From the IMG/VR virus record IMGVR_UViG_3300034375_007901, positions 1 through 26,865 of that record: a DNA stretch of 26,865 nucleotides. The stretch is one strand, 5' to 3'. A model generated the notes under the pieces. It had not been told where the DNA came from. It was given only the letters and a program-made list of their open reading frames with translations, and ran no database searches. This document shows, one piece after another, positions 1 to 20,556 of the stretch. The translations under genes and the position numbers were made by a program. Every line of letters starts with the position of its first letter. Position 1 is the stretch's first letter. Source of the stretch: a virus.

Positions 1-495
1 CCTACTTTAGAAGCATTTGCTAAGTGGTGGATTGAGTTTAAAGATATAAAGGGTTTAGAAGATTACGATGTATGGCTCTTAGGTAGCTTCTGTGAGAAGC
101 ATTACGGTCATTATGAAGGAGTACCCAAAGATTTGGATATCGTTCTTACAGGCGAAATAAAAGATGAAGAACAATTAAAGTATATTCTTTCACATGGAGT
201 CAGTATGGGTTTTGAAAATAAAATCTTAGTTGATTTAACTTGGGCTACTACTTTACACTCATACGATGCATGGGAGCCATTTTGTAGAGTCAGAATTGGT
301 AAGACTTTCACAAAAATATTAGGAGAAAGAGCTAGTGTAACCGAATACAAAGCAGATGAAGAGTATAGATTGGATTCAGGTCTTTGGCAATTTTGCTATA
401 ATGAGCCGCCCAACTCATGGTTCAAAGCATTTCATCGTTTTCAAGATGGTGATTATGAGGGAATTGTAGCAAATGTGCGAACAATGTTTGATTAA
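1..495 (+). CDS. Nucleotidyltransferase-like protein, 5' end cut by window edge
   Basis: The reading frame is open from the first base and ends at TAA 493-495, so the start lies left of the window. The visible part aligns almost residue for residue with the protein at 13760-14326, beginning at residue 25 of that copy. It shows the pol-beta-type nucleotidyltransferase pattern: LLGSF, then KDLDIVLTG, then LVDLTWA, which supplies G-S and three spaced aspartates. The family transfers a nucleotide to a protein, RNA or small molecule; the substrate here is unknown. It is the only + strand gene left of 14.9 kb and converges on the minus-strand virion operon, with 11 bp between stops. A first internal start (TTG 133) would remove the G-S motif, so it is not the true start. 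The fold is fairly sure; the function is not. Confidence 0.75.
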   Translation, partial: PTLEAFAKWWIEFKDIKGLEDYDVWLLGSFCEKHYGHYEGVPKDLDIVLTGEIKDEEQLKYILSHGVSMGFENKILVDLTWATTLHSYDAWEPFCRVRIGKTFTKILGERASVTEYKADEEYRLDSGLWQFCYNEPPNSWFKAFHRFQDGDYEGIVANVRTMFD

Positions 496-5200: not shown

Positions 5201-5749
5201 CTATACCTTACTAGCAAAATACTCATCCAATGTATCTTGAATGATTGGACCTAATAATTGTAATTTACATTGTCCAGTTACTAAATCATAATTATTAATG
5301 GCACGAAGGTGGTAATAATTGGAACGAAACTCTACCACATCGTTTAGTTCCATCTTAAAGTAATCAGCAAGAGGAATGTTAGCTGAACAATTTATTAATC
5401 TAGTACGTGGGTCATATAACAAACTAATATATTTTGCCCAATATTGTGAAAAAAGAGTTTGTGTTGGTGTAGTTCCATATGCAGGTGTTTCATTAAAGAA
5501 TAATAATGAATCAGAATCTGCAGCGGGATTTCCCTCAGCTGATGAACCTGTGTTGTAATGGTCAAAGTATGGAATCTCAGTTTGAGTTCTTATGTTTGCT
5601 GAATTTAATGTATCATCGAATGTTTGTACAAACCTATATGGTTGCACCTCTTTTAATCCATTGTAAAAAAAGAAACGTGGAAGTACATTCGATGGATTAA
5701 AATCGTTATCAGCTATAAATGTTGGTATGTAAATTTTATCTGCTGCCAT
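5201..5749 (-). CDS. Tail/baseplate protein, C-terminal part of a split structural protein (182 aa)
   Basis: The N-terminus (DKIYIPTFIADNDFNPSNV) leads into LPRFFFYNGLKEVQPY. The C-terminus has IPLADYFKMELNDVVEFRSN, YYHLRAINNYDLVTGQCKLQ and LLGPII, a beta-rich pattern that I recall closing much larger tail proteins of Bacteroidetes phages. The ORF starts 2 bp after the stop of the 674-residue gene upstream and has no independent leader. The pair therefore looks like one ancestral tail-tip/hub protein split by a stop-start, or two obligate partners. It is probably a baseplate or tail-tip component. Confidence is high that it is a structural gene, moderate on the split. Confidence 0.7.
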   Translation of the reverse strand: MAADKIYIPTFIADNDFNPSNVLPRFFFYNGLKEVQPYRFVQTFDDTLNSANIRTQTEIPYFDHYNTGSSAEGNPAADSDSLLFFNETPAYGTTPTQTLFSQYWAKYISLLYDPRTRLINCSANIPLADYFKMELNDVVEFRSNYYHLRAINNYDLVTGQCKLQLLGPIIQDTLDEYFASKV

Positions 5750-5751
5750 AA

Positions 5752-7776
5752 TTAACTTGTTGGTTCATCGGCACAAGTTGTAACAAATGAAACAACTTCA
5801 CCGGTTGATGAACTGATTGAATATATATCACCTACCAAAGCGTTAGCCACATATCGATAACCTGTTAAAGGTGTACCCAATGTATTTGTATATATTACAT
5901 CACCTTCATCAAAAGTAGAAGAATTTCTGGTAATATATCCAATTCTAGGTGTAGCACTACACACAGCCCATTCGTAAGTAGATGTGCTTCTTTGATAAAG
6001 AATTTGGTAATAAGTTACGGCTGGTGCCGCACTACCACTCAAACCTGTACCTTGTACATATCTCAAAGGGGATGCAGCTGTGGTTGGTTCTACTTTAAAT
6101 TCACCTTGAGAGAAAAAGTTTTCAGTATCGATGTAAAAACTTTCACCATAAGGTCTATTAGTTTCTTTCTTAAAGTTTTGTGCTAATAAATCTGCATCTT
6201 CAGTATGTCCAAATGTTAGTTTATTAACTGCTAAGTTGTTAGCTGGAATAACTTCAAACTTATCATCTAAATTAATGTATTTGTTAAAGTTTTTTACCTC
6301 ACCCTGTTTATACCAATTATTAAAGGTTTCAACAATGAATTCTTTTGGTTTTGTTTTAGATGGATAGATTACTAAATTAAAGTTTCTTTGTACAGCTTTA
6401 ATAAAGTCAATCATTTTAATACCATTCTTTCCAACAGGCATTTGGTCTGCAATATCCATTACTCTCCAATCTGCTGCATAAGTTTGTTGGTTAACTTCCC
6501 AATACGATTTTTCATCTCCATCTGGTGCAAGTGTTACTGTAAAATTAGAACCACCAAAGGTTTCGTATTTTAACATTGGATAAACCGCTTTATTGGCTGG
6601 TATTACATTTGATTTCCAATAGTATTCTAAATCGTATTCCACATCACCTACACCTGAAGTTACTGAGTATTCTTGTTGTAGGTAATTGTTCCAATTCGTT
6701 ATTTCTTCACTCCAATACGAACCCGTACCATCATTAATATCCGCTTGTGAACCTGTGTTTATTGAACCTGTTTCGTATAATCCAATACTAAATTGTGGAA
6801 CACCTGCTGAACCTGATACTTTGAATTTTAATCGGATACTACCTTCTAATGGTGATTGTCTATCATCTTGCATATATGACATATTGTCACCAATGTTGAA
6901 TTGTGGGTCAAATTGGTTGTTCTCCCATCTTAATTGAGCCCAATTCCCTTCAGTAATTAATTGAGTATCTGATGTAGAACCTGATATAGGTCCTATCTTT
7001 ACTTGCCCATAAGTTTCTAAATCAACACCATCAAACTCAGGATACCTACCACCATTATGTAATACCATATACATTTGGTCGAAAATTGATGAGGTAAGAA
7101 AATCTGATTGATAAGTGTAACCAAACTGCTCAAATATAGCATCCCATACTTTCTTTACCTTAATAGCAGGTTTGAAATCTTGTACCGATAATGCTCCATT
7201 TGGATTATCTATACCATACTTTCCATCCAATGAGGATTGATAAGCGATATCCTTTCCATAATCAATAAGTGGATACACAATATCACCATTAAACAAACCA
7301 TCACTCCACGAAGAAGTAATGTTTGCATAAGATGCAGAGTGATTCAAATCGGTAAGTGTAGTTATATCGGTTAAGAACGCCCTATTTACCTCTCTCGCAA
7401 ATGATGCCAACGAACCAAATATGGTAACCTCATACGAATCGATATATTTGTTCGCAACAACATTTACTTTATTTAATTGTAGATATCCGCTTGCGAGGTA
7501 TAATCCATCAAAATCAAAATATGCATCAACTTTGTTGGATGTTGAGAATAGAAACGGATTCTCAACCGATATATCGTAATACTGCTCAAAGAATTGATTA
7601 TTTTTCTTAGAGCCAGGTAAAGTAATCTGACGTGAGAAATCAGTAGGTAGTGTACCTACATCAAATAGCCCCGTAATGTTATCGGAGATGGTAATAGTTT
7701 CATCCTTAAATAAATCTAAACTAACACCATTGGCTACTAATTTAAAATTGAAACCTTGTGTTGTTCTAACTCCCAT
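5752..7776 (-). CDS. Large tail-tip/baseplate protein (674 aa)
   Basis: A beta-rich protein beginning GFNFKLVANGVSLDLF. It has FSRQITLPGSKKNNQFFEQY near residue 48, a pattern recurring in putative tail hub or baseplate proteins of Bacteroidetes phages. The centre has VKKVWDAIFEQFGYTYQSDF, MIDFIKAVQRNFNLVIYPS and LDDKFEVIPANNLAVNKLTF, as expected for a multi-domain hub. The last 75 residues (IGYITRNSSTFDEGDVIYTN) resemble a small beta decoration domain. Its start overlaps the stop of the 387-residue gene by one base (7776), and its stop is 2 bp from the next start. Position between neck genes and tape measure supports a distal tail role. No enzyme motif was recognised. Confidence 0.72.
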   Translation of the reverse strand: MGVRTTQGFNFKLVANGVSLDLFKDETITISDNITGLFDVGTLPTDFSRQITLPGSKKNNQFFEQYYDISVENPFLFSTSNKVDAYFDFDGLYLASGYLQLNKVNVVANKYIDSYEVTIFGSLASFAREVNRAFLTDITTLTDLNHSASYANITSSWSDGLFNGDIVYPLIDYGKDIAYQSSLDGKYGIDNPNGALSVQDFKPAIKVKKVWDAIFEQFGYTYQSDFLTSSIFDQMYMVLHNGGRYPEFDGVDLETYGQVKIGPISGSTSDTQLITEGNWAQLRWENNQFDPQFNIGDNMSYMQDDRQSPLEGSIRLKFKVSGSAGVPQFSIGLYETGSINTGSQADINDGTGSYWSEEITNWNNYLQQEYSVTSGVGDVEYDLEYYWKSNVIPANKAVYPMLKYETFGGSNFTVTLAPDGDEKSYWEVNQQTYAADWRVMDIADQMPVGKNGIKMIDFIKAVQRNFNLVIYPSKTKPKEFIVETFNNWYKQGEVKNFNKYINLDDKFEVIPANNLAVNKLTFGHTEDADLLAQNFKKETNRPYGESFYIDTENFFSQGEFKVEPTTAASPLRYVQGTGLSGSAAPAVTYYQILYQRSTSTYEWAVCSATPRIGYITRNSSTFDEGDVIYTNTLGTPLTGYRYVANALVGDIYSISSSTGEVVSFVTTCADEPTS

Positions 7777-9986: not shown

Positions 9987-10499
9987 TTATAAATTTAGTC
10001 CACCAAAGTATTGGTTAGTTTGGTCTGGGTAGATTTGAGTAGAATCTCCAACTGATTGTAAGAACTCAGGTATCTGATTTGAGTATGCAATTAGATAATC
10101 CTGTAATCTTGTAGCGTAATAATCAGCGTTATCTTGTGATTTTTGAGCCAAATAATCAATTTCATTCTTACTGACAGATTCAGCTTGTTCTGATTTGTAT
10201 TTTACAGCTCCTTCACTCTTAAATTGAGTGGCTGAGAATGGTATATACTCAACGCATGCGTACCAAATAAGGGTTGGCTTTACATAATCATTCATTAGGG
10301 TAAGATAGTACCCAGAAAACGCTGTTTGAGATTCTATATCATCTTGCAGTTTGTTATACAATACTGTACCTAATAGGTTTAGTATATATTTTTCTTGAGC
10401 CGTTCTAATGAATGGTAATAATCTATCAGCATCAACAGCACCCTGTAAAGGTGTGTTTTTAATGATATCGTTTCGTGTTACAAATAATCCAAAAGCCAT
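9987..10499 (-). CDS. Head-tail connector, gp6-like/DUF6712-type (170 aa)
   Basis: The protein starts MAFGLFVTRNDIIKNTPLQG, continues DADRLLPFIRTAQEKYILNL and LGTVLYNKLQDDI, and is almost all-helical. This is the pattern of the head-tail adaptor proteins placed directly after the portal gene in Bacteroidetes phages (the DUF6712-type connector as I recall it). The start codon shares one base with the stop of the portal gene (10499), so translation is coupled. The protein would form a ring below the portal. The tail end is Gln/Tyr/Pro-rich (DSTQIYPDQTNQYFGGLNL). Confidence 0.72.
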   Translation of the reverse strand: MAFGLFVTRNDIIKNTPLQGAVDADRLLPFIRTAQEKYILNLLGTVLYNKLQDDIESQTAFSGYYLTLMNDYVKPTLIWYACVEYIPFSATQFKSEGAVKYKSEQAESVSKNEIDYLAQKSQDNADYYATRLQDYLIAYSNQIPEFLQSVGDSTQIYPDQTNQYFGGLNL

Positions 10500-11740
10500 T
10501 ATTCAAATATTTTATCGTTAGTAGTTTCGTTTATATCATCAACCTTATCTTCGTATTCCATCTCATCAGGATTTTCCATTTGTTCGTTTACATCCTGCTC
10601 AACTTCTTCAATTGTTTGGTCAGTTTCTTCTGCAGTTTGTGATAAGATAGCCAAAGGTGTTAATTGTTCAAAATATAACTCCATATCTTCCAAACCAGCT
10701 TTTTCAAATGCATCAGATATAACATCGATTAACATTTGTTGGAATGGTTGAATAGTCATTGTTTGCATGATAGAGAATGCTGTCATCATTTCTTCACTCT
10801 GAGAAGAGAATCCGTTTTGTGCAGTTCTAATACCAAAAAGGAGTGGAGAAGTAATTCTATGTGCTACCAATATTCTATCCTGAGCGTATTCTGCTACATA
10901 TTGGTACTTATCGTGCAGATTCTCAGTTTGTATTGTATCAATGGTTGGTTTATTTGCTGGGTCATCGTTAAATGATACCATAAATCTACCAGCATTACGA
11001 GTACCTGTAAATTTACCTTCAATCAATGCTTCAATTGTATCTCTTTCTTCAGGTGCAGGTACACCATTGTTCATATTAACCATTACTAATGGCAAGAATC
11101 CATTTTCAATGTTGTTAATGTGTAGGTTTGATAATTCTGCTTCTGAGAATGAGAATTGTAAAGCTGATATCCAATCAGGTAATCCGTAATAGAATCTAGA
11201 AGGTGTGTAATCCTTAATATAAAGAATTTCCATTTTTTCCATTGATGTACCAAAAGCAGGAATTACTTTTTTGTTTCTTTGTGCTCTTTGGTCTGACCAA
11301 TCAGTACAATAGTAGTAGTTTTCAATATCGATAGAATCGTATATTTTTTCTGCTCTTAGATTTTGTACAGGCACATGGTACATTTTTTTAATGGTAGTGT
11401 GTGAGTTATCCCAAATTACTTGGAATGCAGCATTACCATAAAGTTTCAAATCAAATGAAACTTTTTTCATATCTTTTTGTGAGAGGATACTTTGTAATTG
11501 TTTATCCTTTACCTCATTTTTAGAATATAAACCCTTTCCGTAAATCAAATCGGCTACACCTTCAATACAAGCCGCATTTGTGGTTGAGGTTTGATAAGCA
11601 TCAGTAATGATTGGGAAGTAATCATCTTGCCCAATTATACCCACAGGTACCCAGCTATATCTTGTCTTTGTATCTTCAACAATTTCAGGTATATCCTGAC
11701 GAGTTAGATTTACGAAGCTTAAATTTTCAATCTTCTTCAT
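10499..11740 (-). CDS. Portal protein (413 aa)
   Basis: Segments typical of phage portals are visible. These are an N-terminal helical region with AACIEGVADLIYGKGL, a YGNAAFQVIWDNSH strand pair, RFYYGLPDWISALQ and AYAQDRILVAHRITSPLLFG. The crown side has GFSSQSEEMMTAFSIM, then IQPFQQMLIDVISDAFEKAG. The C-terminus is highly acidic (EEVEQDVNEQMENPDEMEYE). Portals form the dodecameric DNA entry ring and dock the terminase. The terminase genes are on the opposite strand about 7 kb away rather than adjacent. A length of 413 residues is normal for a compact portal. It overlaps the connector gene by one base. Confidence 0.85.
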   Translation of the reverse strand: MKKIENLSFVNLTRQDIPEIVEDTKTRYSWVPVGIIGQDDYFPIITDAYQTSTTNAACIEGVADLIYGKGLYSKNEVKDKQLQSILSQKDMKKVSFDLKLYGNAAFQVIWDNSHTTIKKMYHVPVQNLRAEKIYDSIDIENYYYCTDWSDQRAQRNKKVIPAFGTSMEKMEILYIKDYTPSRFYYGLPDWISALQFSFSEAELSNLHINNIENGFLPLVMVNMNNGVPAPEERDTIEALIEGKFTGTRNAGRFMVSFNDDPANKPTIDTIQTENLHDKYQYVAEYAQDRILVAHRITSPLLFGIRTAQNGFSSQSEEMMTAFSIMQTMTIQPFQQMLIDVISDAFEKAGLEDMELYFEQLTPLAILSQTAEETDQTIEEVEQDVNEQMENPDEMEYEDKVDDINETTNDKIFE

Positions 11741-11741
11741 A

Positions 11742-12101
11742 TTAAGTTAAAATTATGTATTCGTTAGCAGTATCGTTAGAGATATATGAACCTGTTGTGT
11801 TCTGATTTGTATATACTGGCTTATTAATTGATTGAGATGCGTACACCTGAATAGTTCCATCCCATAATCTATTATCACAACTATCCTTAATGTGTGCTCT
11901 ATACTCATCGCCTGTATTTGCTGTGATAGAAGCAGTAAATTGTAAGATAGATTGTTCAGTATTGTATGTGTAATCACTAATAGCTGCTGATGATGTAGAT
12001 AGAGTTAACATATCCTCTAAATACAATGTCAAATCAGATGAGCCCGTAGGTTTGGTTCTAAAAGTGAATACATTTGAACCTGAAATGTAATACGATTGCA
12101 T
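11742..12101 (-). CDS. Small beta-rich structural protein upstream of portal (119 aa)
   Basis: A Ser/Thr/Asn-rich protein with alternating hydrophobic residues (SDLTLYLEDMLTLSTSSA, ILQFTASITANTGDEYRAHI, LWDGTIQVYASQSINKPVYT), i.e. a small beta-sandwich with no catalytic motif. It directly precedes the portal gene (1 bp gap) and so opens the virion block after the homing-endonuclease terminator. I recall similar small proteins beside portals of Bacteroidetes phages and consider a capsid decoration or minor virion protein likely. This is an inference. Confidence 0.6.
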   Translation of the reverse strand: MQSYYISGSNVFTFRTKPTGSSDLTLYLEDMLTLSTSSAAISDYTYNTEQSILQFTASITANTGDEYRAHIKDSCDNRLWDGTIQVYASQSINKPVYTNQNTTGSYISNDTANEYIILT

Positions 12102-12174
12102 ATATCTTGTCTTTAGGTTGTCTTTAAGTCTTTAACAACTCTACATAGATAAGTATTTGACAATCTAAAAGCAT
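12102..12174 (-). promoter_or_regulatory. Leader of the portal operon with triple GTCTTTA repeat
   Basis: These 73 bases lie between the endonuclease terminator and the start of the virion block, so a new promoter is expected here. No good TAnnTTTG element is visible. Three copies of GTCTTTA (+ strand at 12109-12115, 12120-12126 and 12128-12134) lie just upstream of the ATG, spaced 11 and 8 bp. They may bind a phage regulator or be chance AT-rich repeats. Confidence 0.35.
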
Positions 12175-12199
12175 AAAAAAAGGAATAATCTCTTATCCC
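12175..12199 (-). terminator. Rho-independent terminator after the GIY-YIG gene
   Basis: Read on the minus strand, GGGATAA pairs with TTATTCC (one G-T pair) around a GAGA tetraloop, followed by seven T. The first arm contains the stop codon of the endonuclease gene, so the gene ends inside its own terminator. It would insulate the virion operon from read-through. Confidence 0.8.
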
Positions 12200-12771
12200 T
12201 CTTTATATTTCCAAATAAATCCACCTGTTGATTTTAATCTACCTCTACAAACTGCAGTAATACTTGACCTGGTTAAATTTAATTTTTTTGAAGCTTGTGT
12301 AGCACTAATCCATTCTTTTATAAAATTATTATTTTTATCATATTGTATTATTGGAATATTATTAGCCTTTATCATCTTTTGTAATTCACCAGATTGCTTT
12401 TTTTTAAGGCCACTTACTTTTCCACCCAATTTTTGGCATTGTTTCCATTGGCCTGATTTTACATTTCGTTTACCTACTATTGCACCAGAAACTTTTCCTC
12501 CTTTACTTCTACCTTTTGTAGTTGCCATTTTTATAGTTTTCCAATAAGGTTTTGTATCTACTGGATACCCATATTGTTTTTGTAATTCTCTTTCTCTTAT
12601 GCTAGCTGTATATATACAATCATATTCTTCAAGCACTTCCCAAAAATTAAATTTATTTTTTGAAATATATTTGTTATCTTGAATTCTAGCATCTATATTA
12701 TATGTACATCCTATTTTACCAATAGAACCATCTTTGTACATAAAATCTGGGATGTGATAAATGTAATACAT
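12193..12771 (-). CDS. GIY-YIG homing endonuclease with NUMOD domains (192 aa)
   Basis: Residues 1-60 form a GIY-YIG-type nuclease start: YYIYHIP, then GKIGCTYNIDARIQ, where KIG plus a downstream Arg replaces the classical YIG-x-Arg. The middle has a glycine/lysine-rich NUMOD3-like DNA-binding stretch (KGRSKGGKVSGAIVGKRN and LGGKVSGLKKKQSG). The C-terminus is a NUMOD1-like helix-turn-helix (IIQYDKNNNFIKEWISATQA, LTRSSITAVCRGR, STGGFIWKYKEG). Such genes are selfish elements that nick a target site and copy themselves in. It is inserted between the methyltransferase and the virion genes (3 bp gap upstream) and carries its own terminator. The gene is intact with no visible frameshift. Confidence 0.85.
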   Translation of the reverse strand: MYYIYHIPDFMYKDGSIGKIGCTYNIDARIQDNKYISKNKFNFWEVLEEYDCIYTASIRERELQKQYGYPVDTKPYWKTIKMATTKGRSKGGKVSGAIVGKRNVKSGQWKQCQKLGGKVSGLKKKQSGELQKMIKANNIPIIQYDKNNNFIKEWISATQASKKLNLTRSSITAVCRGRLKSTGGFIWKYKEG

Positions 12772-12774
12772 AAA

Positions 12775-13521
12775 TTATCTATTATCAATATAAATTATTA
12801 CTTCATTATAGTATTCAATGAAATGTTCATTAAACAGGTCCCATTTTATATCCACGCCATCAACCGAATATATCTGATGATTAGGAAATAATCTCAAATA
12901 GGTATCTCTAAAGATTCTAAACTTTTCTTTTAATTGAGGATTAGATAAATGCCATTCACCTGCAATCTTCTTCATATTATCTTTAATCCACCAAATATTT
13001 TCACTATTAAACACATCGTACTCACCACCTTCGCAATCCGTTTTAAGAAAGTCAATTCTATCTATATTATATTCTTTAATTAGCGTAGAAAACTTAATAC
13101 CATCTACCCATTGTGGTGTGAGAAATGTAGGTACTTCACCATCCGAATCAGGTTCACCATACACTTGTTCCATATTAGTTGGAGCATCCTCATGCCAAAT
13201 AGCTTTGTTGATACAAGTGATATTATCTTCTTTAGTATTCTTTAGTAAAGTTGGAAACTGAGAATAAGAAGCTTCTACACAATATATCTTAGAAGGGTTC
13301 TTATCTTTAATAACGCAAGGAAAAGGACCGATAGAAGCTCCTAAATCTAAAACTACATCACCTTCTTCTACTTCAAAATGTTTTTCGTATATGTTAGTAT
13401 CAGTTGTAAAAAATTCTTCTTCTATCAATCTCCTCATTCGATTCTGAGGTGCTGACATCCATCCCCAATCAAAATTACTTAGTGAATGCATCTTGGAAAT
13501 TTTCTTTATCATAAACACCAC
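12775..13521 (-). CDS. FkbM-family methyltransferase (248 aa)
   Basis: This is a SAM-dependent methyltransferase. Motif I VVLDLGASIGPF is at residues 56-67, the acidic end of strand 2 is YCVEAS (Glu83), and the FkbM signature IDFLKTDCEGGEYDVF is at 156-171. FkbM enzymes O-methylate sugars or other hydroxyl groups. In phages they may modify surface glycans or DNA/virion sugars; the substrate is unknown here. Start choice is open: ATG at 13521, 13512 or 13491 all overlap the upstream small gene, and the shorter start MHSLSNFDWGW gives only a 17-bp overlap. It belongs to the transcription unit driven by the promoter at 13724-13761. Confidence 0.82.
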   Translation of the reverse strand: MVFMIKKISKMHSLSNFDWGWMSAPQNRMRRLIEEEFFTTDTNIYEKHFEVEEGDVVLDLGASIGPFPCVIKDKNPSKIYCVEASYSQFPTLLKNTKEDNITCINKAIWHEDAPTNMEQVYGEPDSDGEVPTFLTPQWVDGIKFSTLIKEYNIDRIDFLKTDCEGGEYDVFNSENIWWIKDNMKKIAGEWHLSNPQLKEKFRIFRDTYLRLFPNHQIYSVDGVDIKWDLFNEHFIEYYNEVIIYIDNR

Positions 13522-13708
13522 TATCGATGTTTGTAATCATTGCTTTGAATATTGAAATCTTTGAATTGTGTTCTCTATAATCTATCTTAGGTAAACACTC
13601 ATTAGGATGTTTTTCTATAATCCATGCTAATTTTTTTCTTTCTTCTGAATGATACGCTATCATATTATTAAGATGCGCTTTTATATTTTCTTTAATTAAT
13701 TCTGCCAT
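13475..13708 (-). CDS. Hypothetical protein, first gene after the minus-strand promoter (77 aa)
   Basis: A helical, charged 77-residue protein (NIKAHLNNMIAYHSEERKKL, CLPKIDYREHNSKISIF). It begins about 16 bp after the TAnnTTTG promoter element and overlaps the start of the methyltransferase gene, so the two are co-expressed. No family recognised. Confidence 0.6.
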   Translation of the reverse strand: MAELIKENIKAHLNNMIAYHSEERKKLAWIIEKHPNECLPKIDYREHNSKISIFKAMITNIDSGVYDKENFQDAFTK

Positions 13709-13723
13709 ATTATTTTATTTGTA

Positions 13724-13761
13724 TTACAAATATACAAAATTATTTTTATATATCCAAATTT
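13724..13761 (-). promoter_or_regulatory. Bacteroidetes-type promoter (minus strand)
   Basis: On the minus strand TTTG (13758-13755) is followed by exactly 20 bp and TATATTTG (13734-13727). This matches the -33 TTTG / -7 TAnnTTTG consensus of Bacteroidetes sigma factors. The flanks match the promoter at 14888-14925 as well: AAATTTGGAT on the upstream side and G-TATATTTG-TAA on the downstream side. It starts directly at the stop codon of the nucleotidyltransferase gene and fires into the 77-residue gene and methyltransferase. Confidence 0.8.
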
Positions 13762-14326
13762 ATTCAAACATTTTTCTTACATCTGCGCAGATACCCTGAT
13801 ATAATCCATCTTCCCATCGTTGATATGCTTTAAACCAACTGTTAGGTGGTTCTTTAAAACAAAAAGCATGTAAGCCACAATCTAATCTTCGTTCATCATC
13901 TCCGTGATATTCACTTACATAAGCTTTATCTCCTAATATCTTTGTAAATGTTTTACCTACTCTGATTTTACAAAAGGGTTGCCAATTATCAAACTTACTT
14001 ATCTCAGTTGCCCAAGTCAAATCAACCAACATTTTATTCTCAAATCCTAAATGGATTCCGTGTGAAAGAATATATTTTAGCTGTTCTTCGTCTTGTAGTT
14101 CGCCTGTGAGAACTATATCGAGGTCTCTTACTATTCCGTTGTAATGACCGAAATGCCTCTCACAGAAGCTACCTACTAAGTTTACCTCATAATCTTCTAA
14201 TCCCTTAATAGTTTTAAATTCAGTCCACCAATTAGCAAAAGCTTCTAAGGTAGGTCTACGGTATGGAGTTGTTGTGGTAACATCACCCCAAGTTGCCTGA
14301 AAGAATGGTGGTTTCTTTAATCTCAT
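13760..14326 (-). CDS. Nucleotidyltransferase-like protein, complete copy (188 aa)
   Basis: Complete paralogue of the truncated gene at the left edge. It begins MRLKKPPFFQATWGDVTTTT. The pol-beta-like elements are VGSF (G52-S53), RDLDIVLTG (D68, D70) and LVDLTWA (D102), giving the usual two-plus-one metal-binding acidic residues. The C-terminal half (KIRVGKTFTKILGDKAYVSE and CFKEPPNSWFKAYQRWEDG) is equally conserved in both copies, so it is probably functional rather than linker. Substrate is unknown; tRNA, protein or antibiotic-type transfer are all possible. The gene follows a terminator-like hairpin by only 4-14 bp, suggesting attenuation, and is followed immediately by the promoter at 13724-13761. 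Confidence 0.78.
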   Translation of the reverse strand: MRLKKPPFFQATWGDVTTTTPYRRPTLEAFANWWTEFKTIKGLEDYEVNLVGSFCERHFGHYNGIVRDLDIVLTGELQDEEQLKYILSHGIHLGFENKMLVDLTWATEISKFDNWQPFCKIRVGKTFTKILGDKAYVSEYHGDDERRLDCGLHAFCFKEPPNSWFKAYQRWEDGLYQGICADVRKMFE

Positions 14327-14329
14327 ATT

Positions 14330-14360
14330 CTACAAAAAGAAAAAGGGGATTCCTCCCCTC
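14330..14360 (-). terminator. Terminator-like hairpin in the leader of the nucleotidyltransferase gene
   Basis: On the minus strand AGGGG (14359-14355), loop AGGAAT and CCCCT (14348-14344) are followed by TTTCTTTTTG. A G-T pair extends the stem. It lies just before the ATG at 14326. It therefore either ends a short minus-strand RNA or conditionally terminates ahead of the gene. Confidence 0.65.
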
Positions 14361-14470
14361 TCTCCTCAAATTAATTAACCTTAAAAAGTGAAGGCCAACT
14401 CAACAATCAAGGGTAAACGAATAAAAATATGATAAGAATAGTTAGATGTTGACCTTCTCTAATAAATATA
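14361..14470 (-). ncRNA. Minus-strand leader RNA or short ncRNA
   Basis: GAAGGTCAAC (minus strand, 14457-14448) can pair with GTTGGCCTTC (14399-14390) over 10 bp with one G-U pair. On the + strand the same position would be a C-A mismatch, so the minus strand is the structured one. The long stem followed by the terminator at 14330-14360 looks like a leader with an attenuator, or a small stand-alone RNA. A weak TATATTTA element lies just upstream. No ORF is present. Confidence 0.4.
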
Positions 14471-14639
14471 TACGAGCGTATGTTTTTAAAAAAATATTTA
14501 AAATTTTTTATGTTTTTGGACACTGTGTTATATTTATAGATGTAAACGATAAAACGAATAAACTATAAAACTTAATAACATTAATTGGAGCTCGTACAAC
14601 TCCCTCTCTTATTTTTTGTAATACACCCTTCGTAAGATG

Positions 14640-14870
14640 ATTAGTTGTATGTAAAATGTACCTTAGGCACCGTTGAGAATACGGGAATAACTCTGAAAAG
14701 AGGAATAAGTGAAACTAAGGCAAGGTGGAGCTAAGAAAGTAGGTAATGAGGTAATTCCTTTTTCTTAGTCTGGTGTAGGACCAGTTGTTGACTGATGACA
14801 AGTTAACATTCTCACCCCAATGTGAGTAATATCACAGAAGGGTGGATTGTATCCCTCAGACAAGTTAAAC
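14640..14870 (+). ncRNA. Candidate structured non-coding RNA, no known family recognised
   Basis: There is no ORF in any frame worth noting, yet local helices are densely packed. CCTTAG 14661-14666 pairs with CTAAGG 14715-14720, enclosing CCGT/ACGG (14670-14684) and CTCT-GAAA-AGAG (14691-14702). GCTAAGAAAG at 14730 pairs with the U-rich arm ending 14769. CTGGT/ACCAG spans 14770-14784. GTTGAC/GTTAAC spans 14787-14807, with a G-U pair. CTCAC/GTGAG spans 14811-14826, and AGGG/CCCT spans 14839-14856. The GNRA loop and G-U pair make sense only on the + strand. GACAAGTTAA occurs twice (14797 and 14859). The element lies between divergent units, just upstream of the promoter at 14888. It is not tmRNA, RNase P RNA or a group I intron by any motif I can see. 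Confidence 0.5.
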
Positions 14871-14887
14871 TGTTATTTCTTCTTTAT

Positions 14888-14925
14888 AAATTTGGATTAT
14901 TAAGATTTATTTCGTATATTTGTAA
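14888..14925 (+). promoter_or_regulatory. Bacteroidetes-type promoter (plus strand)
   Basis: TTTG 14891-14894, a 20-bp spacer and TATATTTG 14915-14922 match the Bacteroidetes consensus. The same AAATTTGGAT upstream and G-TATATTTG-TAA downstream context occurs at the minus-strand promoter 13724-13761. It drives the run of + strand genes starting at 14945. Confidence 0.82.
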
Positions 14926-14944
14926 AAATTAAATAATAAAAGTT

Positions 14945-15082
14945 ATGAGTGCAGAAAAAAAATACAATGAATGGTTTGAATTTACAAAAGATAAGGTAGA
15001 TGTACATCTAGCAAACGAATTCAATAGAATTTTTAAAGATTTATTAGAAGAACACAACATTGAACCAATGAAAACGCAATAA
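14945..15082 (+). CDS. Small hypothetical protein (45 aa)
   Basis: First ORF after the + strand promoter: ATG 14945 to TAA 15080-15082, with an A-rich leader (TAATAAAAGTT). The product is helical and acidic (AEKKYNEWFEFTKDKVDVHL). It stands 6 bp before the next gene. Function unknown; a small early phage protein is the plain reading. Confidence 0.6.
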   Translation: MSAEKKYNEWFEFTKDKVDVHLANEFNRIFKDLLEEHNIEPMKTQ

Positions 15083-15088
15083 ACCAAT

Positions 15089-15283
15089 ATGAAATCAAAA
15101 TTATTTAAACATTACGAAAGAGAATTTGAACAATCAGAATTTTCAGATAGACCTAATTTAAAAGAAGGATGGATTCAAAATAAAATGAAGAGAGACTTAG
15201 AAGATTATCTATGGGATGTCAGAAATAGAGATTTAGCTGAACAAGAAATAGAAAGACTAGAATCAAAAAAAGACATAAGCTAA
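15089..15283 (+). CDS. Small hypothetical protein (64 aa)
   Basis: A highly charged helical protein (LFKHYEREFEQSEFSDRPNL, KMKRDLEDYLWDVRNRDLAE). It is co-directional with the 45-residue ORF and 6 bp behind it, and is followed by a hairpin at 15337-15366. No family recognised. Confidence 0.6.
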   Translation: MKSKLFKHYEREFEQSEFSDRPNLKEGWIQNKMKRDLEDYLWDVRNRDLAEQEIERLESKKDIS

Positions 15284-15336
15284 TATTTATAAATGATAAT
15301 TATTTATCTGCCAATAAATATTTATTTTCCTTATTC

Positions 15337-15370
15337 AAGAAAAGGGGTCATAGTATCCCTTTTCTTTTAA
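15337..15370 (+). terminator. Terminator-like hairpin
   Basis: AAGAAAAGGG (15337-15346) pairs perfectly with CCCTTTTCTT (15357-15366) around a 10-base loop, followed only by TTAA. The short T tail makes it a weak terminator or partial attenuator separating two small early genes from those starting at 15384. Confidence 0.6.
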
Positions 15371-15383
15371 CCTTACTTAATAT

Positions 15384-15569
15384 ATGATTTGTTTAATAAA
15401 ATTTGGAAACATAGTAGAGGGATTAATCAATGTAATTACATTAGGTTGGGGAAAAGATTTAGCTATGTGGATAGCAAATAAATTAGGATACGCAGATTGC
15501 GGGTGCGAAAGACGTCGTGTGTATTTAAATAAGTTATTTGGTTGTAAAGAAAAAGGGATATCATTATGA
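15384..15569 (+). CDS. Small phage protein with CGC motif (61 aa)
   Basis: An amphipathic/hydrophobic N-terminal half (FGNIVEGLINVITLGWGKDL) is followed by DCGCERRRVYLNKLFGC. I associate the C-G-C-x-x-R-R-x-x-L-N-K-L-F motif with small proteins encoded near the terminase genes of many Bacteroidetes phages; its role is unknown. The stop overlaps the start of the next gene by 4 bp, so translation is coupled. Membrane association is possible but the hydrophobic part is short. Confidence 0.68.
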   Translation: MICLIKFGNIVEGLINVITLGWGKDLAMWIANKLGYADCGCERRRVYLNKLFGCKEKGISL

Positions 15570-15799
15570 GTTCAGAAAAGTATTTACCTCTTACTGAAGA
15601 GGAATTTAAAAGATTAGAAGGAGAATTAAATTTAATAAAAGCTTTCCTACCAGAAGGACAGATGCATTTTATTTGGTTGATGTATAACAAAATCAGAAAT
15701 AAAACAGAAACACAGCCGTGTTCTTGTAAAAGTTCTGCTAAGTTATGGGCACAAGCAGTTAATGCATTACGTGATTTTGTGAAGGAAAGAAGTGAATAA
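15566..15799 (+). CDS. Small phage protein with CSCKSS motif (77 aa)
   Basis: A helical protein (LPLTEEEFKRLEGELNLIKA) with a central PCSCKSSAKLWAQAVNALRD motif. This Cys-x-Cys pattern also belongs to the set of small proteins I associate with Bacteroidetes phages. It overlaps both neighbours: 4 bp with the CGC-motif protein and 8 bp with the sigma-like gene. The three genes form a translationally coupled group. Confidence 0.68.
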   Translation: MSSEKYLPLTEEEFKRLEGELNLIKAFLPEGQMHFIWLMYNKIRNKTETQPCSCKSSAKLWAQAVNALRDFVKERSE

Positions 15800-16334
15800 A
15801 GAAACTAAAAAAAGATTAGATGTACTATACAGAAAACATCATCAATGGTTATTTTCTGTTGCATTCAAAGCTAGCAAAGATATGATAATATCTGAGGAGT
15901 TAGTTCAGGAATTGTACCTCTATCTTTTAGAAAGAAATGATGAAGCTCTCTACTTTAAAGATAGTTACAATCTACAATATTGTAGAGCGTTTATCATCAG
16001 TAGATTCTACAATCTTAAAAAAGTAGATAATAGATGGTTACCTTTATTTTCAGATTGGGATAGTGAAGATATACCATATGATGAAGAATGGGATAATAAA
16101 TTGGAAAAATCATATAAAGAAGTTTTAGATGAATTATCTCAAATGAAGAAAAAGAAAGGTTGGTCATCAGCAATGTTGTTTGAATTATATTGGTTTTCAG
16201 ATAAAACATTTGATGAATTGAGTAAAGAAATAGGCATATCTAAGAGCACAGCGTTCTTAAATGTAAAGAAAATAAAAACATTATTAAAAGAAAAATTAGA
16301 TAATCCATTTAATAAGGAAAAAAATGAAGAATAA
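15792..16334 (+). CDS. RNA polymerase sigma-70-like factor (180 aa)
   Basis: Residues about 10-50 (LYRKHHQWLFSVAFKASKDM, ISEELVQELYLYLLER) look like region 2.1/2.2 of an ECF-type sigma factor. Residues about 138-165 (KTFDELSKEIGISKSTAFLN) form the region 4 helix-turn-helix that reads the upstream promoter element. The start is GTG at 15792, inside the preceding gene. Similar proteins occur in this position in Bacteroidetes phages, and a role in late transcription or small-terminase-like DNA binding are both possible. Region 2.4 is not clear, so promoter recognition may be degenerate. If active, it may read promoters other than the host-like pair at 13.7 and 14.9 kb. Confidence 0.6.
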   Translation: MNKETKKRLDVLYRKHHQWLFSVAFKASKDMIISEELVQELYLYLLERNDEALYFKDSYNLQYCRAFIISRFYNLKKVDNRWLPLFSDWDSEDIPYDEEWDNKLEKSYKEVLDELSQMKKKKGWSSAMLFELYWFSDKTFDELSKEIGISKSTAFLNVKKIKTLLKEKLDNPFNKEKNEE

Positions 16335-16494
16335 AGAATTAGAGCAGATAAGAAAGAAAAATAGTAAAAAATTAGAACAACTTCTAACTAATCCAAAACG
16401 GGTAGAAAGAGCAGCTAAGAAAATGTATCCTAAGAATTGGAAAGTTATATTCTCAGGAGAAAGACATCCCTTAAATCAAAGTAGAGATAAATAA
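16324..16494 (+). CDS. Small basic protein (56 aa)
   Basis: ATG 16324 overlaps the sigma-like gene by 11 bp and TAA 16492-16494 precedes the next ATG by 1 bp, so packing supports coding. The product is lysine-rich and helical (LEQIRKKNSKKLEQLLTNPK) with AAKKMYPKNWKVIFSGERHP. That segment is similar in pattern to VLGRKYYGDNWLATLWGNHP of the protein at 17343-17777. A nucleic-acid-binding role is plausible. Confidence 0.6.
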   Translation: MKNKELEQIRKKNSKKLEQLLTNPKRVERAAKKMYPKNWKVIFSGERHPLNQSRDK

Positions 16495-16495
16495 T

Positions 16496-16765
16496 ATGGA
16501 AGCAAAATTAAAAGAAAACTTTAGAAGTTTAATGAAAAAAGGCAAAGAAGGTGTATGGTCATACATTGAAGAAGCCGAAACTTTGGGTGCAAAGATTGAC
16601 AACCCAAATGAATATGATGGATATGTAGCAGATATCTTAATTAAGGTAAGAGAAGAGAAAAGATTTGATTTCTCACAATATAAAGAAGTGAGAAGGTTCA
16701 TTATAGAACATCAAAGATTAAACTCAGTAAAACCGCAAGAAGATAACGATTTTATAGTATTATAA
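16496..16765 (+). CDS. Hypothetical protein (89 aa)
   Basis: A mixed-charge helical protein (LKENFRSLMKKGKEGVWSYI, NEYDGYVADILIKVREEKRF). It starts 1 bp after the small basic protein and ends 12 bp before the HNH gene. No family recognised. Its place between sigma-like and homing-endonuclease genes says little about its job. Confidence 0.62.
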   Translation: MEAKLKENFRSLMKKGKEGVWSYIEEAETLGAKIDNPNEYDGYVADILIKVREEKRFDFSQYKEVRRFIIEHQRLNSVKPQEDNDFIVL

Positions 16766-16777
16766 ATTAAAATAAAA

Positions 16778-17371
16778 ATGGAAAATAAAGAAGAATGGAA
16801 AAGAGTAGATATTAAAACTCAGTTTGGTAACACATTAGACTTTTTAGTATCTAACACTGGTAGAGTAAAATACCCACAAAGAGAAGTATTGACAAGATGG
16901 GGAAATTATCGAAAAACAAAAGAAAGAGAAGCTAAGTATTCATTAGCTAATACTGGTTATCCTAGATGTTCAGCTGGTCTTGTACATAGAATTGTTGCAC
17001 AAGTTTGGTTGGACACGCCTGAAGGATGGGAAGATACTAAGAGTTGGGTAGTGAATCACAAAGATGGTAATAAAAAGAATAATCATTATACAAATTTAGA
17101 ATGGGTTTCTCATAAAGAAAATTGTAAACATTATTTTGATTCAGATAAATCAATAGAAGATGGTAAGTCTCAGCCCGTAGAAGTTTGGCATAAAAATGGA
17201 GAATGGGTAGGAGTATTCCCACAATATCGCAAAGTAGGAGAAGCTTTAGGTATTTTACCACAATCAATATACTCACAATTATCAGGAAAAACAAAATCAA
17301 CAGGCGGATATATTATAAAAAGGATTACACTAAAAGAATATCATGCCAAAAAAGATAAAAAGAGATTATAG
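16778..17371 (+). CDS. HNH homing endonuclease with NUMOD4 and NUMOD1-like domains (197 aa)
   Basis: Residues 6-35 match NUMOD4 (EEWKRVDIKTQFGNTLDFLV, SNTGRVKY). The HNH nuclease follows: VHRIVAQVWL (residues 69-78), then VVNHKDGNKKNNHYTNLEWV (91-110) with the catalytic His94 and Asn residues. A NUMOD1-like helix-turn-helix closes the protein (PVEVWHKNGEWVGVFPQYRK, STGGYIIKRI). It is a complete selfish endonuclease. Its 3' end overlaps the next gene by 29 bp, and the next gene also carries a NUMOD1-like tail, which suggests linked invasion. Confidence 0.9.
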   Translation: MENKEEWKRVDIKTQFGNTLDFLVSNTGRVKYPQREVLTRWGNYRKTKEREAKYSLANTGYPRCSAGLVHRIVAQVWLDTPEGWEDTKSWVVNHKDGNKKNNHYTNLEWVSHKENCKHYFDSDKSIEDGKSQPVEVWHKNGEWVGVFPQYRKVGEALGILPQSIYSQLSGKTKSTGGYIIKRITLKEYHAKKDKKRL

Positions 17372-17777
17372 CTACGAAGATTACTTAGAAATCAAAAAAG
17401 AAACCAAACGAAAGTTAGATAAGATATTCGCTATGGAGAATTATCAAGAGGTTTTAGGTAGGAAGTACTATGGTGATAATTGGTTAGCTACTTTATGGGG
17501 AAATCATCCTGCAAGAGCTGAGAGGCATAAAGAGAATACTCAAAAAGCACTTCGAAGAATGAAAGGAGAATTTGTTCCTTATAGAAAAACACAAAAAGAA
17601 TTAGCATGTATTCAATTTGATTTAGAAGGAAATAAAATAAAAGAATGGGAAAGTGTAAATCAGGTAATAGAAGAATTAGGATGGAAAGAATCAGCAGCAT
17701 CTCAAATATTAAGATGTTGTAAAGGAGAACATTTAACAGCTTATAATTTTAAATGGGAATTTAAAGAAGATGAATAA
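17343..17777 (+). CDS. NUMOD1-bearing protein, possible homing endonuclease remnant (144 aa)
   Basis: The C-terminal 55 residues form a NUMOD1-like module (CIQFDLEGNKIKEWESVNQV, KESAASQILRCCKGEHLTAY, NFKWEF) like those of the GIY-YIG and HNH genes in this window. The N-terminal 85 residues are basic and helical (YLEIKKETKRKLDKIFAMEN and RKYYGDNWLATLWGNHPARA) and show no HNH, GIY-YIG or LAGLIDADG motif. Either the nuclease domain has been lost or an unrecognised one is present. Overlaps on both sides (29 bp and 8 bp) show it is packed like a native gene. Confidence 0.68.
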   Translation: MPKKIKRDYSYEDYLEIKKETKRKLDKIFAMENYQEVLGRKYYGDNWLATLWGNHPARAERHKENTQKALRRMKGEFVPYRKTQKELACIQFDLEGNKIKEWESVNQVIEELGWKESAASQILRCCKGEHLTAYNFKWEFKEDE

Positions 17778-18267
17778 GATACAAGTATATGGAATGCAGA
17801 GAAGTGGTACAAACTTCTTAGAATGGACATTAAGAAACAACTTTGTAGATTTAGAATATGATGGTTCACTACATTCAATTGGAAATGTGAAAGGAGATAT
17901 GAGATTTGGTATTCAACAATCCCTAAAGCATTGTTTACCTAATTTGGAAAACGGAAAAGCTCTAATCATAATGAGAGATTACGAAGAATGGAACAACTCA
18001 GTAAGAAAAAACTTTAGTGGTTGTACCTATACACTTAAAGATTACAATTACTATTATCAAACACCTCTTAGAGAAAATTGGCATCAAGACGATTATATCT
18101 TAGTAAATCACAAATGGGCTATACAAAATTATTATACACTTCTAATAGCAATTCAGGGTAGGTTTGGAGTTCGTATCAAAGAAGATTGGAAACAGCCAAT
18201 GAAGCGCTTGCATTGGGATGGTGGTAAAACGCTAACGAATATAGATTTCAACTTGAATGTTAAATAG
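17770..18267 (+). CDS. Sulfotransferase-like P-loop protein (165 aa)
   Basis: The N-terminus IQVYGMQRSGTNFLEWTLRN (residues 4-23) has the G-x-x-R-S-G-T-(T/N) loop with which sulfotransferases bind the 5'-phosphosulfate of PAPS. ALIIMRDYEEWNNSVRKNF near residue 65-83 matches the second signature (R-D-x-x-E-W-x-x-S) that binds the 3'-phosphate. It is shorter than cellular sulfotransferases (165 residues), so it would be a minimal domain. In phages such enzymes could sulfate sugars on the virion or host surface. Another Walker-like fold is the alternative. It is placed just before the terminase genes. Confidence 0.6.
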   Translation: MNKIQVYGMQRSGTNFLEWTLRNNFVDLEYDGSLHSIGNVKGDMRFGIQQSLKHCLPNLENGKALIIMRDYEEWNNSVRKNFSGCTYTLKDYNYYYQTPLRENWHQDDYILVNHKWAIQNYYTLLIAIQGRFGVRIKEDWKQPMKRLHWDGGKTLTNIDFNLNVK

Positions 18268-18614: not shown

Positions 18615-19041
18615 AAAGCTAGGCTTAATCTTCGGACATAAATTAGGTGATATGTCTCATGCAGTTAATAAAATGGAAACATTAGGATATGAGCCCGTTT
18701 TAGTTACATGGGACAGATATAAAGATAATTTTAGTGAGTTAGATTATACTATATGGACACAACCCACACCATTACATCAGGGAATGGATTGTATGAACTT
18801 ATTTTTAAAATCTAAGGATTTAGCCCTTACTCAACTAAAAAGAAAATCTATTGGAGCAGTAGCTAACTGCCACACTATTCCAACTCTTTGGGATTGGGAT
18901 TTAACTAACAAAGAGTGGGAAACGCTTTTTGATTTCGAACTACATAAGGATTATGTAGATGATGTAATCCAAAGAAGATATAAAGAATTATATGGAACTA
19001 AAGATTCAGACGAGCAAGACGTTTTTGGACTTGCTGAATGA
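18586..19041 (+). CDS. Hypothetical protein between the terminase subunits (151 aa)
   Basis: A basic N-terminus (TKKTTKSKK) is followed by LGLIFGHKLGDMSHAVNKME, TLGYEPVLVTWDRYKDNF and LHQGMDCMNLFLKS, with an aromatic C-terminal helical part (LWDWDLTNKEWETLF). The hydrophobic-G-x-x-G start hints at an alpha/beta Rossmann-like unit, but no family is recognised. It overlaps the small subunit by 29 bp and the large subunit by 50 bp, so all three are translated together. It might be a packaging accessory protein or a moron. Confidence 0.6.
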   Translation: MTTKKTTKSKKLGLIFGHKLGDMSHAVNKMETLGYEPVLVTWDRYKDNFSELDYTIWTQPTPLHQGMDCMNLFLKSKDLALTQLKRKSIGAVANCHTIPTLWDWDLTNKEWETLFDFELHKDYVDDVIQRRYKELYGTKDSDEQDVFGLAE

Positions 19042-20173
19042 AGATAGAATAGCTATCTTACAGGGTGGTACTCGTAGTGGTAAATCCTATTCAGCAATCC
19101 AATACCTTATAACTAAAGCATTAGAGAACCCTGGCGTTCTTATTTCGGTTGTAAGGAAGTCATTCCCATCCCTTCGTATATCTGCGATGAGAGACTTTAA
19201 AACAATCCTTAAAGAATGGGAGATTTGGGATGAGGAGAATTGGTATGCTTCTGAAAACTCTTATACCTTTGATAATGGTTCATCTATTGAATTCTTATCA
19301 GTACAAGATTCGGAAAGAAGGAAGGGCACCAAGCGCAATTACTTGTTCATTGATGAAGCAAATGAATTGAACTATGAAGATTACTTCCAGCTCTCTATTC
19401 GTACAACGGATAAGATTATTATTGCATATAACCCATCGTTCGCTACAAACCATTGGATATTCCAACAAGTACTCACACACCCAGACGCTACTAGATACAT
19501 TACAACCTATAAAGATAATCCATTCTTAGATGATACATTAGTAACTGAGATTGAAAGATTAGAGAAAACCTCACCATCTTATTGGAAAGTTTATGGATTG
19601 GGATTAGAGGGTGTAGTAGAAGGTCTAATCTTTGATAATGTAGAAGTAGTAGATTATATACCTGAAGAATCAGAATTAATGGGATATGGTATTGACTTTG
19701 GATATACGAATGACCCAACAGCTTTAGTAGCACTTTGGAAAACACCAGAAGGCATTCTATTTGATGAGATTTGTTATATGAAAGGATTACTATCCAATCA
19801 GATAGCAAACTTTATTAGAGCCGCTTATAATCAATTTGGTAAAAAAGAAGTAATCGCTGACTCATCAGACCCAAGACTTATAGAAGAGATATTCAGAAAT
19901 GGAATCAACATCAAACCAGCGGTAAAAGGACCTGATTCAATCTTAGCTGGTATAGATACAATGAAACAACACAAAATATTCATCACTAAGAAATCAGATA
20001 ATATAATTGATGAATTTTACTCTTATACATTTAAGAAAGATAAAAATGAAGAATTTTTAAATGAGCCCGTAGATACAAACAATCACGCAATTGATGCTTG
20101 TAGATATATCGCTACATTTAAACTAAGTAATAAAAGAAAGAGCTTTGGCTCATACACAATTTCAATTAGATAA
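18992..20173 (+). CDS. terL: Terminase large subunit (393 aa)
   Basis: The ATPase and nuclease of DNA packaging. Walker A is QGGTRSGKS (residues 24-32), Walker B is YLFIDEANE (117-125), and coupling motif IIIAYNPS is at 142-149. The RNase H-like nuclease has YGIDFGYTNDPTA (Asp235), VIADSSDPRL (Asp290) and NHAIDACRY (Asp368). All motifs are present and correctly ordered, so the protein is complete at 393 residues, a compact Terminase_3-like size. The start at 18992 lies inside the preceding gene; the next in-frame ATG would remove Walker A. The portal partner is encoded on the other strand at 10499-11740. Confidence 0.93.
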   Translation: MELKIQTSKTFLDLLNEDRIAILQGGTRSGKSYSAIQYLITKALENPGVLISVVRKSFPSLRISAMRDFKTILKEWEIWDEENWYASENSYTFDNGSSIEFLSVQDSERRKGTKRNYLFIDEANELNYEDYFQLSIRTTDKIIIAYNPSFATNHWIFQQVLTHPDATRYITTYKDNPFLDDTLVTEIERLEKTSPSYWKVYGLGLEGVVEGLIFDNVEVVDYIPEESELMGYGIDFGYTNDPTALVALWKTPEGILFDEICYMKGLLSNQIANFIRAAYNQFGKKEVIADSSDPRLIEEIFRNGINIKPAVKGPDSILAGIDTMKQHKIFITKKSDNIIDEFYSYTFKKDKNEEFLNEPVDTNNHAIDACRYIATFKLSNKRKSFGSYTISIR

Positions 20174-20445: not shown

Positions 20446-20556
20446 ATAAATTTCGCGGTCCTGTAGCTCAGATGGCTTAGAGCATTTCGATGTAGGGTTT
20501 TAACCCGAACTCTGATTGCGCGTGGGTTCGAGTCCCATCAGGACCGCGAAATTTAT
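20446..20556. repeat. 18-bp perfect inverted repeat closing the tRNA-like gene
   Basis: ATAAATTTCGCGGTCCTG (20446-20463) is the exact reverse complement of 20539-20556. Seven of these pairs are the tRNA acceptor stem and 11 extend into leader and trailer. In RNA this gives an uninterrupted 18-bp helix; in DNA it could extrude as a cruciform. Confidence 0.9.
20457..20546 (+). tRNA. tRNA-like gene with expanded anticodon region, isotype unclear
   Basis: Acceptor GGTCCTG/CAGGACC (20457-20463 and 20539-20545), D-arm GCTC/GAGC (20466-20483) and T-arm GTGGG-TTCGAGT-CCCAT (20522-20538) are all canonical, with no encoded CCA. The space between D- and T-arms is 38 nt, where a class I tRNA has 23. No ordinary 5-bp stem with a 7-nt loop forms. 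TTCG/CGAA (20486-20489 with 20506-20509) closes a 16-nt loop that could present GTA (Tyr) at 20492-20494. GGG/CCC around TTTTAA (20495-20506) could present TTT (Lys) or TTA instead. It may be a short-intron or class II variant, a decaying tRNA or a tRNA mimic. It lies between the coiled-coil gene and the chaperone-like gene. Confidence 0.6.

Follow-up and report, generated by a model that had tools for sequence, protein, structure and literature searches.

The closest described systems are the untranslated leaders and small RNAs of phage divergent regions; phage small RNAs are the subject of a review (PMC12197685). The locus considered here, positions 14640–14870 of the window (the whole stretch of DNA analyzed, a 26,865-base virus record, IMG/VR IMGVR_UViG_3300034375_007901), shares with them a non-coding, hairpin-rich sequence that separates divergent operons and, beside it, an RNA on the opposite strand that is predicted to end in a terminator. 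It has no sequence or structural match to a named RNA, and both host and phage are uncultivated. For transcription signals, the nearest reference is Flavobacterium psychrophilum, in which TAnnTTTG is the −7 promoter consensus (PMC9723704).

The window carries tailed-phage genes, including those for the tape measure (2696–5044), the portal (10499–11740) and the terminase (18992–20173). Genes run mostly leftward to the left of about 14.3 kb and rightward to the right of 14.9 kb, with 14640–14870 between them; the leftward gene that adjoins the control region is nucleotidyltransferase-like (13760–14326, − strand), and the rightward operon begins with a small ORF of 45 aa (14945–15082, +) of no clear family, whose Pfam match is sub-threshold only. 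A tRNA-Thr gene (anticodon TGT) is found by ARAGORN and Rfam at 20457–20547 (+), where it separates the terminase region from the genes that follow. The nucleotidyltransferase-like gene exists in two opposed copies, the first at the start of the window (133–495, +) and the second at the control region, with proteins 67% identical; their function, given here for genes with no Pfam or PHROG match, is a guess. In a diverged relative, designated L007, the counterpart lies at 5338–5904 and the control region adjoins the opposite end of the segment between the nucleotidyltransferase-like copies, as if 14 kb had been inverted.

Much of what the first-pass annotation described in 14640–14870 is present on the + strand. 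No frame of at least 40 aa beginning with ATG, GTG or TTG occurs in 14543–14945, so the stretch is ORF-free as stated; the CCTTAG (14661–14666)/CTAAGG pair and the GNRA tetraloop hairpin (CTCT-GAAA-AGAG) are both in the sequence, and the minimum free energy (MFE) fold of the + strand gives about eight helices, in line with the series of at least eight that had been listed. The claimed repeat of GACAAGTTAA exists at 14797–14806 and 14859–14868, but as a signal it stands at chance level when taken alone, because a repeated 10-mer of one kind or another turns up in 48% of the control region's dinucleotide shuffles. Similarly, the description of the stretch as far more GC-structured than its surroundings holds for composition (GC 0.39–0.41 vs. 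0.20–0.24 in the flanks) but not for structure far above chance: the fold z is −2.04 on the + strand, where 9 of 200 shuffles fold equally well, and −3.11 on the − strand, and when each strand of the whole record was scanned in steps of 230 nt, the stretch stood at about the 14% level on + and at 8–14% on −, with one + window starting at 14721 reaching z −3.3. G-U pairing and the tetraloop had been taken to assign the RNA to the + strand; the MFE favors that strand and the z-score favors the other, and folding leaves the strand unsettled. A search against Rfam 15, made for L007 as well, gave sub-threshold matches only and none at gathering score, in agreement with the earlier view that no known RNA family is represented; relaxed thresholds applied to the window and L007 gave nothing credible, and the Rfam search of the window had no CRISPR match. 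No terminator-like site was found on the + strand, and BLASTN against phage records returned weak matches only, with E about 0.8 for those listed. From its modest fold and the lack of an ORF or Rfam match, the stretch is read here as a candidate leader or spacer of the rightward transcript.

Homologues were sought among viral contigs using the terminase, sigma-like, 89-aa and nucleotidyltransferase-like proteins and two DNA patterns as queries. Two other records carry the region identically, with zero substitutions, and L007, whose terminase is 88% identical to that of the window, is the single diverged relative in which the control region was found; its gene order to the right of that region is that of the window. 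Searches of bacterial genomes and of isolate phages with the sigma-like protein returned no homologue, and more distant relatives with a conserved terminase did not show the region. L007 keeps a 5′ block (14488–14584, 81% identical) and a 3′ block (14889–14941, 91% identical), while the 222-nt middle between them does not align, none of the listed + helices sought in L007 is kept, and the 226 nt that correspond to the stretch are no more stably folded than shuffled sequence (z −0.04). The sole piece of the stretch recognizable there by local alignment is GTTGTTGACTGATGACAAGTTA (14784–14805, +), and the core common to the two phages is 22–25 nt long, GTTGTTGA..CTGAkGACAAGTTA, with an alignment score of 33 that is reached in about 1% of dinucleotide shuffles (p about 0.01); since this core is shared, 14640–14870 is probably homologous in L007. 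The other matches of the core pattern in IMG/VR look coding, and most are of a single kind, judged by eye to be DNA polymerase. The comparison of + helices thus comprises two identical records and one unalignable homologue, and because the records are identical, L007 lacks the listed helices and only the short core is common, a new + strand family is neither shown nor excluded. The shared core and the z of −3.3 for the 14721 window leave room for a real + strand RNA.

The two conserved blocks that flank the stretch are promoter-like. Just upstream of the first + ORF, within the 91% identical block, a flavobacterial-type element TTTG-N20-TATATTTG is found at 14891–14922 (+), which fits the −7 consensus TAnnTTTG (PMC9723704). 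Unrelated phage contigs also have its core, there ahead of other genes, and for these two reasons the first + ORF is most likely transcribed from this element. The 5′ block carries the promoter-like TATATTTATAG of the rightward transcript, which may act as a promoter without a canonical TTTG box at the usual spacing. In addition, the inverted repeat I12 places TATATTTAT at 14529–14537 (+) and 14462–14470 (−) as candidate −7 boxes of the + and − transcripts, respectively; facing apart, these boxes form a plausible divergent promoter pair, again with the TTTG box missing at the usual spacing, and they match the flavobacterial −7 consensus only partly. A + transcript from 14543 is one that we can only infer, because no TTTG box stands at the usual spacing from 14529–14537.

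On the opposite strand, a structured RNA is predicted at 14458–14333, upstream of the leftward gene at 13760–14326, and consists of a long stem-loop followed by an intrinsic terminator. The 5′ stem arm GAAGGUCAAC (14448–14457, −) pairs with GUUGGCCUUC at 14399–14390, and the stem holds a U-G pair that fits the − strand only; the loop, about 48 nt in all, contains UUUAUUCGUUU (14415–14425, −), and the terminator GAGAGGGGAGGAATCCCCTTTTT, with its T-rich tail, lies at 14340–14362 (−) ahead of the leftward gene. The fold z is −2.73 for the window and reaches −5.24 for L007, and the 230-nt window from 14337 on the − strand ranks at 3.4% in the whole-record scan. It was found that the arms in L007, GAAGUGAG and CUCACUUC, differ from those of the window yet still pair, with a terminator after them and an identical layout, and MAFFT does not align the stem arms of the two phages; the stem rests on one comparison, as only two independent sequences exist. 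The evidence leans towards the − strand, outside 14640–14870, as the site of the RNA structure kept in the diverged relative, and the RNA at 14458–14333 is better supported as an RNA than the + stretch.

The loop of this RNA is connected with a repeated motif. Both the window and L007 have, in their control regions, same-direction repeats of the 10-mer AAACGAATAA, a situation matched in 1 of 3000 shuffle pairs; this figure overstates the significance because the two phages are related. AAACGAATAAA (14552–14562, +), close to the 5′ end predicted for the + transcript, repeats 14415–14425, and the UUUAUUCGUUU loop is complementary to it; in L007, the − strand loop UUAUUCGUUUA (6016–6026) is complementary to 6164–6174 in the same arrangement. 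The − loop and the predicted start of the + transcript are thus complementary over 10–11 nt in both phages, and their duplex would have 11 pairs at about −10 kcal/mol. The sequence concerned is identical in the two phages, and an operator would give the same result.

Meanwhile, a different small RNA, R1, unrelated to 14640–14870, was found near the same place in many relatives of about 47–56% terminase identity, which keep the p61-p77-sigma-p107-terminase order. In R1, a 9-nt bulge UUAAUnAAU separates an outer from an inner stem, and a terminator hairpin comes after them; its loci are L041:219–276, L044:648–702, L045:3769–3823, L056:2127–2184, L067:3161–3219 and L071:1997–2055, and L030:3114–3171, L036:4280–4334, L047:2362–2417, L076:3134–3190 and L028:236–294 on the − strand. 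In eight sequences, 12 of the 15 pairs show changes on both sides and 0 of 500 shuffles reach the covariation score; when the model is fitted to 13 distinct sequences, this holds for 14 of 15 pairs. With no match in an Rfam search, R1 is a candidate new RNA family. Its covariance model finds it absent from the window and L007, the best unfiltered score in window positions 12000–18000 being 10.7 bits (E 1.2). R1-pattern matches in bacterial genomes have scores at chance level. As this comparison shows, covariation of RNA structure can be detected in the phage group where such structure is present and sequences exist. In two further relatives (L099:3230–3345 and L100:1590–1720), a + strand hairpin with the loop UUUAGUGCCAUUUAG (UUUAAUGCCAUUUAG in L099) stands in place of R1, after a promoter-like site and ahead of the first gene.

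The terminator loop of R1 could pair with the neighboring + gene around its start codon, to which it is complementary (UGCCAU/AUGGCA, UGUCAU/AUGACA), over as many as 11–12 nt in L061 and L045, and R1 loops match their own neighbor better than the neighbors of other phages (permutation p 0.00025, which is optimistic because, for 3 of 12 genes, the start was reset manually with knowledge of the loop, and some of the loops are identical or nearly so). The loop of L039 does not fit this complementarity, and a cruder Fisher count was tallied by eye with near-duplicate loci included. Among five neighbors tested, those from L030, L041, L044 and L061 have an HNH_3 domain and that of L036 has none. The window resembles R1 in that its RNA also adjoins the p61-p77-sigma-terminase operon and has a stem-loop and then a terminator hairpin, but it has neither the 9-nt bulge nor a start-codon-complementary terminator loop. 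In the window, complementarity to gene starts was counted for 10 genes with the + RNA vs. 8 expected and for 9 with the − RNA vs. 5, with no loop match; the longest match, 12 nt to a 77-aa gene, involves no loop but the T-rich tail of the terminator, and neither of the two RNAs is complementary to the start of the gene that follows it.

To our preferred reading we give about an even chance: 14640–14870 would be the middle of a fast-evolving untranslated leader or spacer, beside the − strand RNA, with the divergent transcripts under cross-control. The + transcript would begin at the conserved AT-rich block, near 14543, and extend as far as 14891–14922, where a second promoter would drive the first small + ORF; the + hairpins would be phage-specific and turn over quickly, while the surrounding promoter blocks are kept. 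The − strand stem-loop and terminator (14458 to 14333) would sit upstream of the leftward operon, and the loop and the 5′ end of the + transcript could form a 10–11 nt duplex. The likeliest mechanism would be that the divergent transcripts control each other, either through RNA pairing or through a protein that binds AAACGAATAA in DNA. The narrower proposal, in which the two divergent RNAs regulate each other via the UUUAUUCGUUU loop and the 5′ end of the + RNA, as a sister to the R1 arrangement, is tentative and rather doubtful.

Of the competing explanations, the one that survives best, possible but somewhat unlikely, is that of a phage-specific + strand small RNA gene with its own promoter, in which exchangeable hairpin modules surround a short core (UUAGUUG ... 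GUUGUUGA..CUGAkGACAAGUUA) and the product acts in trans on phage or host RNA. The core common to L007 and the position between two promoter blocks agree with it, as do L100, L041 and L067, which have a separate small RNA unit and terminator before the operon promoter; however, the lack of a + strand terminator-like site, the failure of L007 to keep the hairpins, the missing Rfam match and the absence of any excess in the gene-start complementarity of the + loops (10 vs. 8 expected) speak against it. It is quite improbable that the region works only as DNA, that is, as a replication origin or an operator, AT-rich and with iterated AAACGA-type sites, its hairpins being incidental and on either strand. 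An AT content of about 77–78% at 14450–14600 and the same-direction repetition of AAACGAATAA in both phages would be expected of such a region, and the cumulative GC skew minimum near 14.0–14.3 kb would be as well, but the divergent gene direction explains that minimum equally well, and the arms around one motif copy have changed yet pair, with a one-strand G-U pair, as expected of an RNA. The role in packaging, immunity or anti-defense that had been suggested is very improbable, since nothing beyond position and hairpins favors it, no Rfam family is matched, the terminase gene is 4 kb distant and the more remote relatives in which the terminase is kept do not show the region.

Although it lies outside the window, R1 is the more interesting result: it is a testable translation-control device, and the next gene is in several cases homing-endonuclease-like. 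For the window itself, mutual control of the divergent transcripts, if true, would make the region a compact RNA switch that acts at the principal control point in a group of uncultivated phages.
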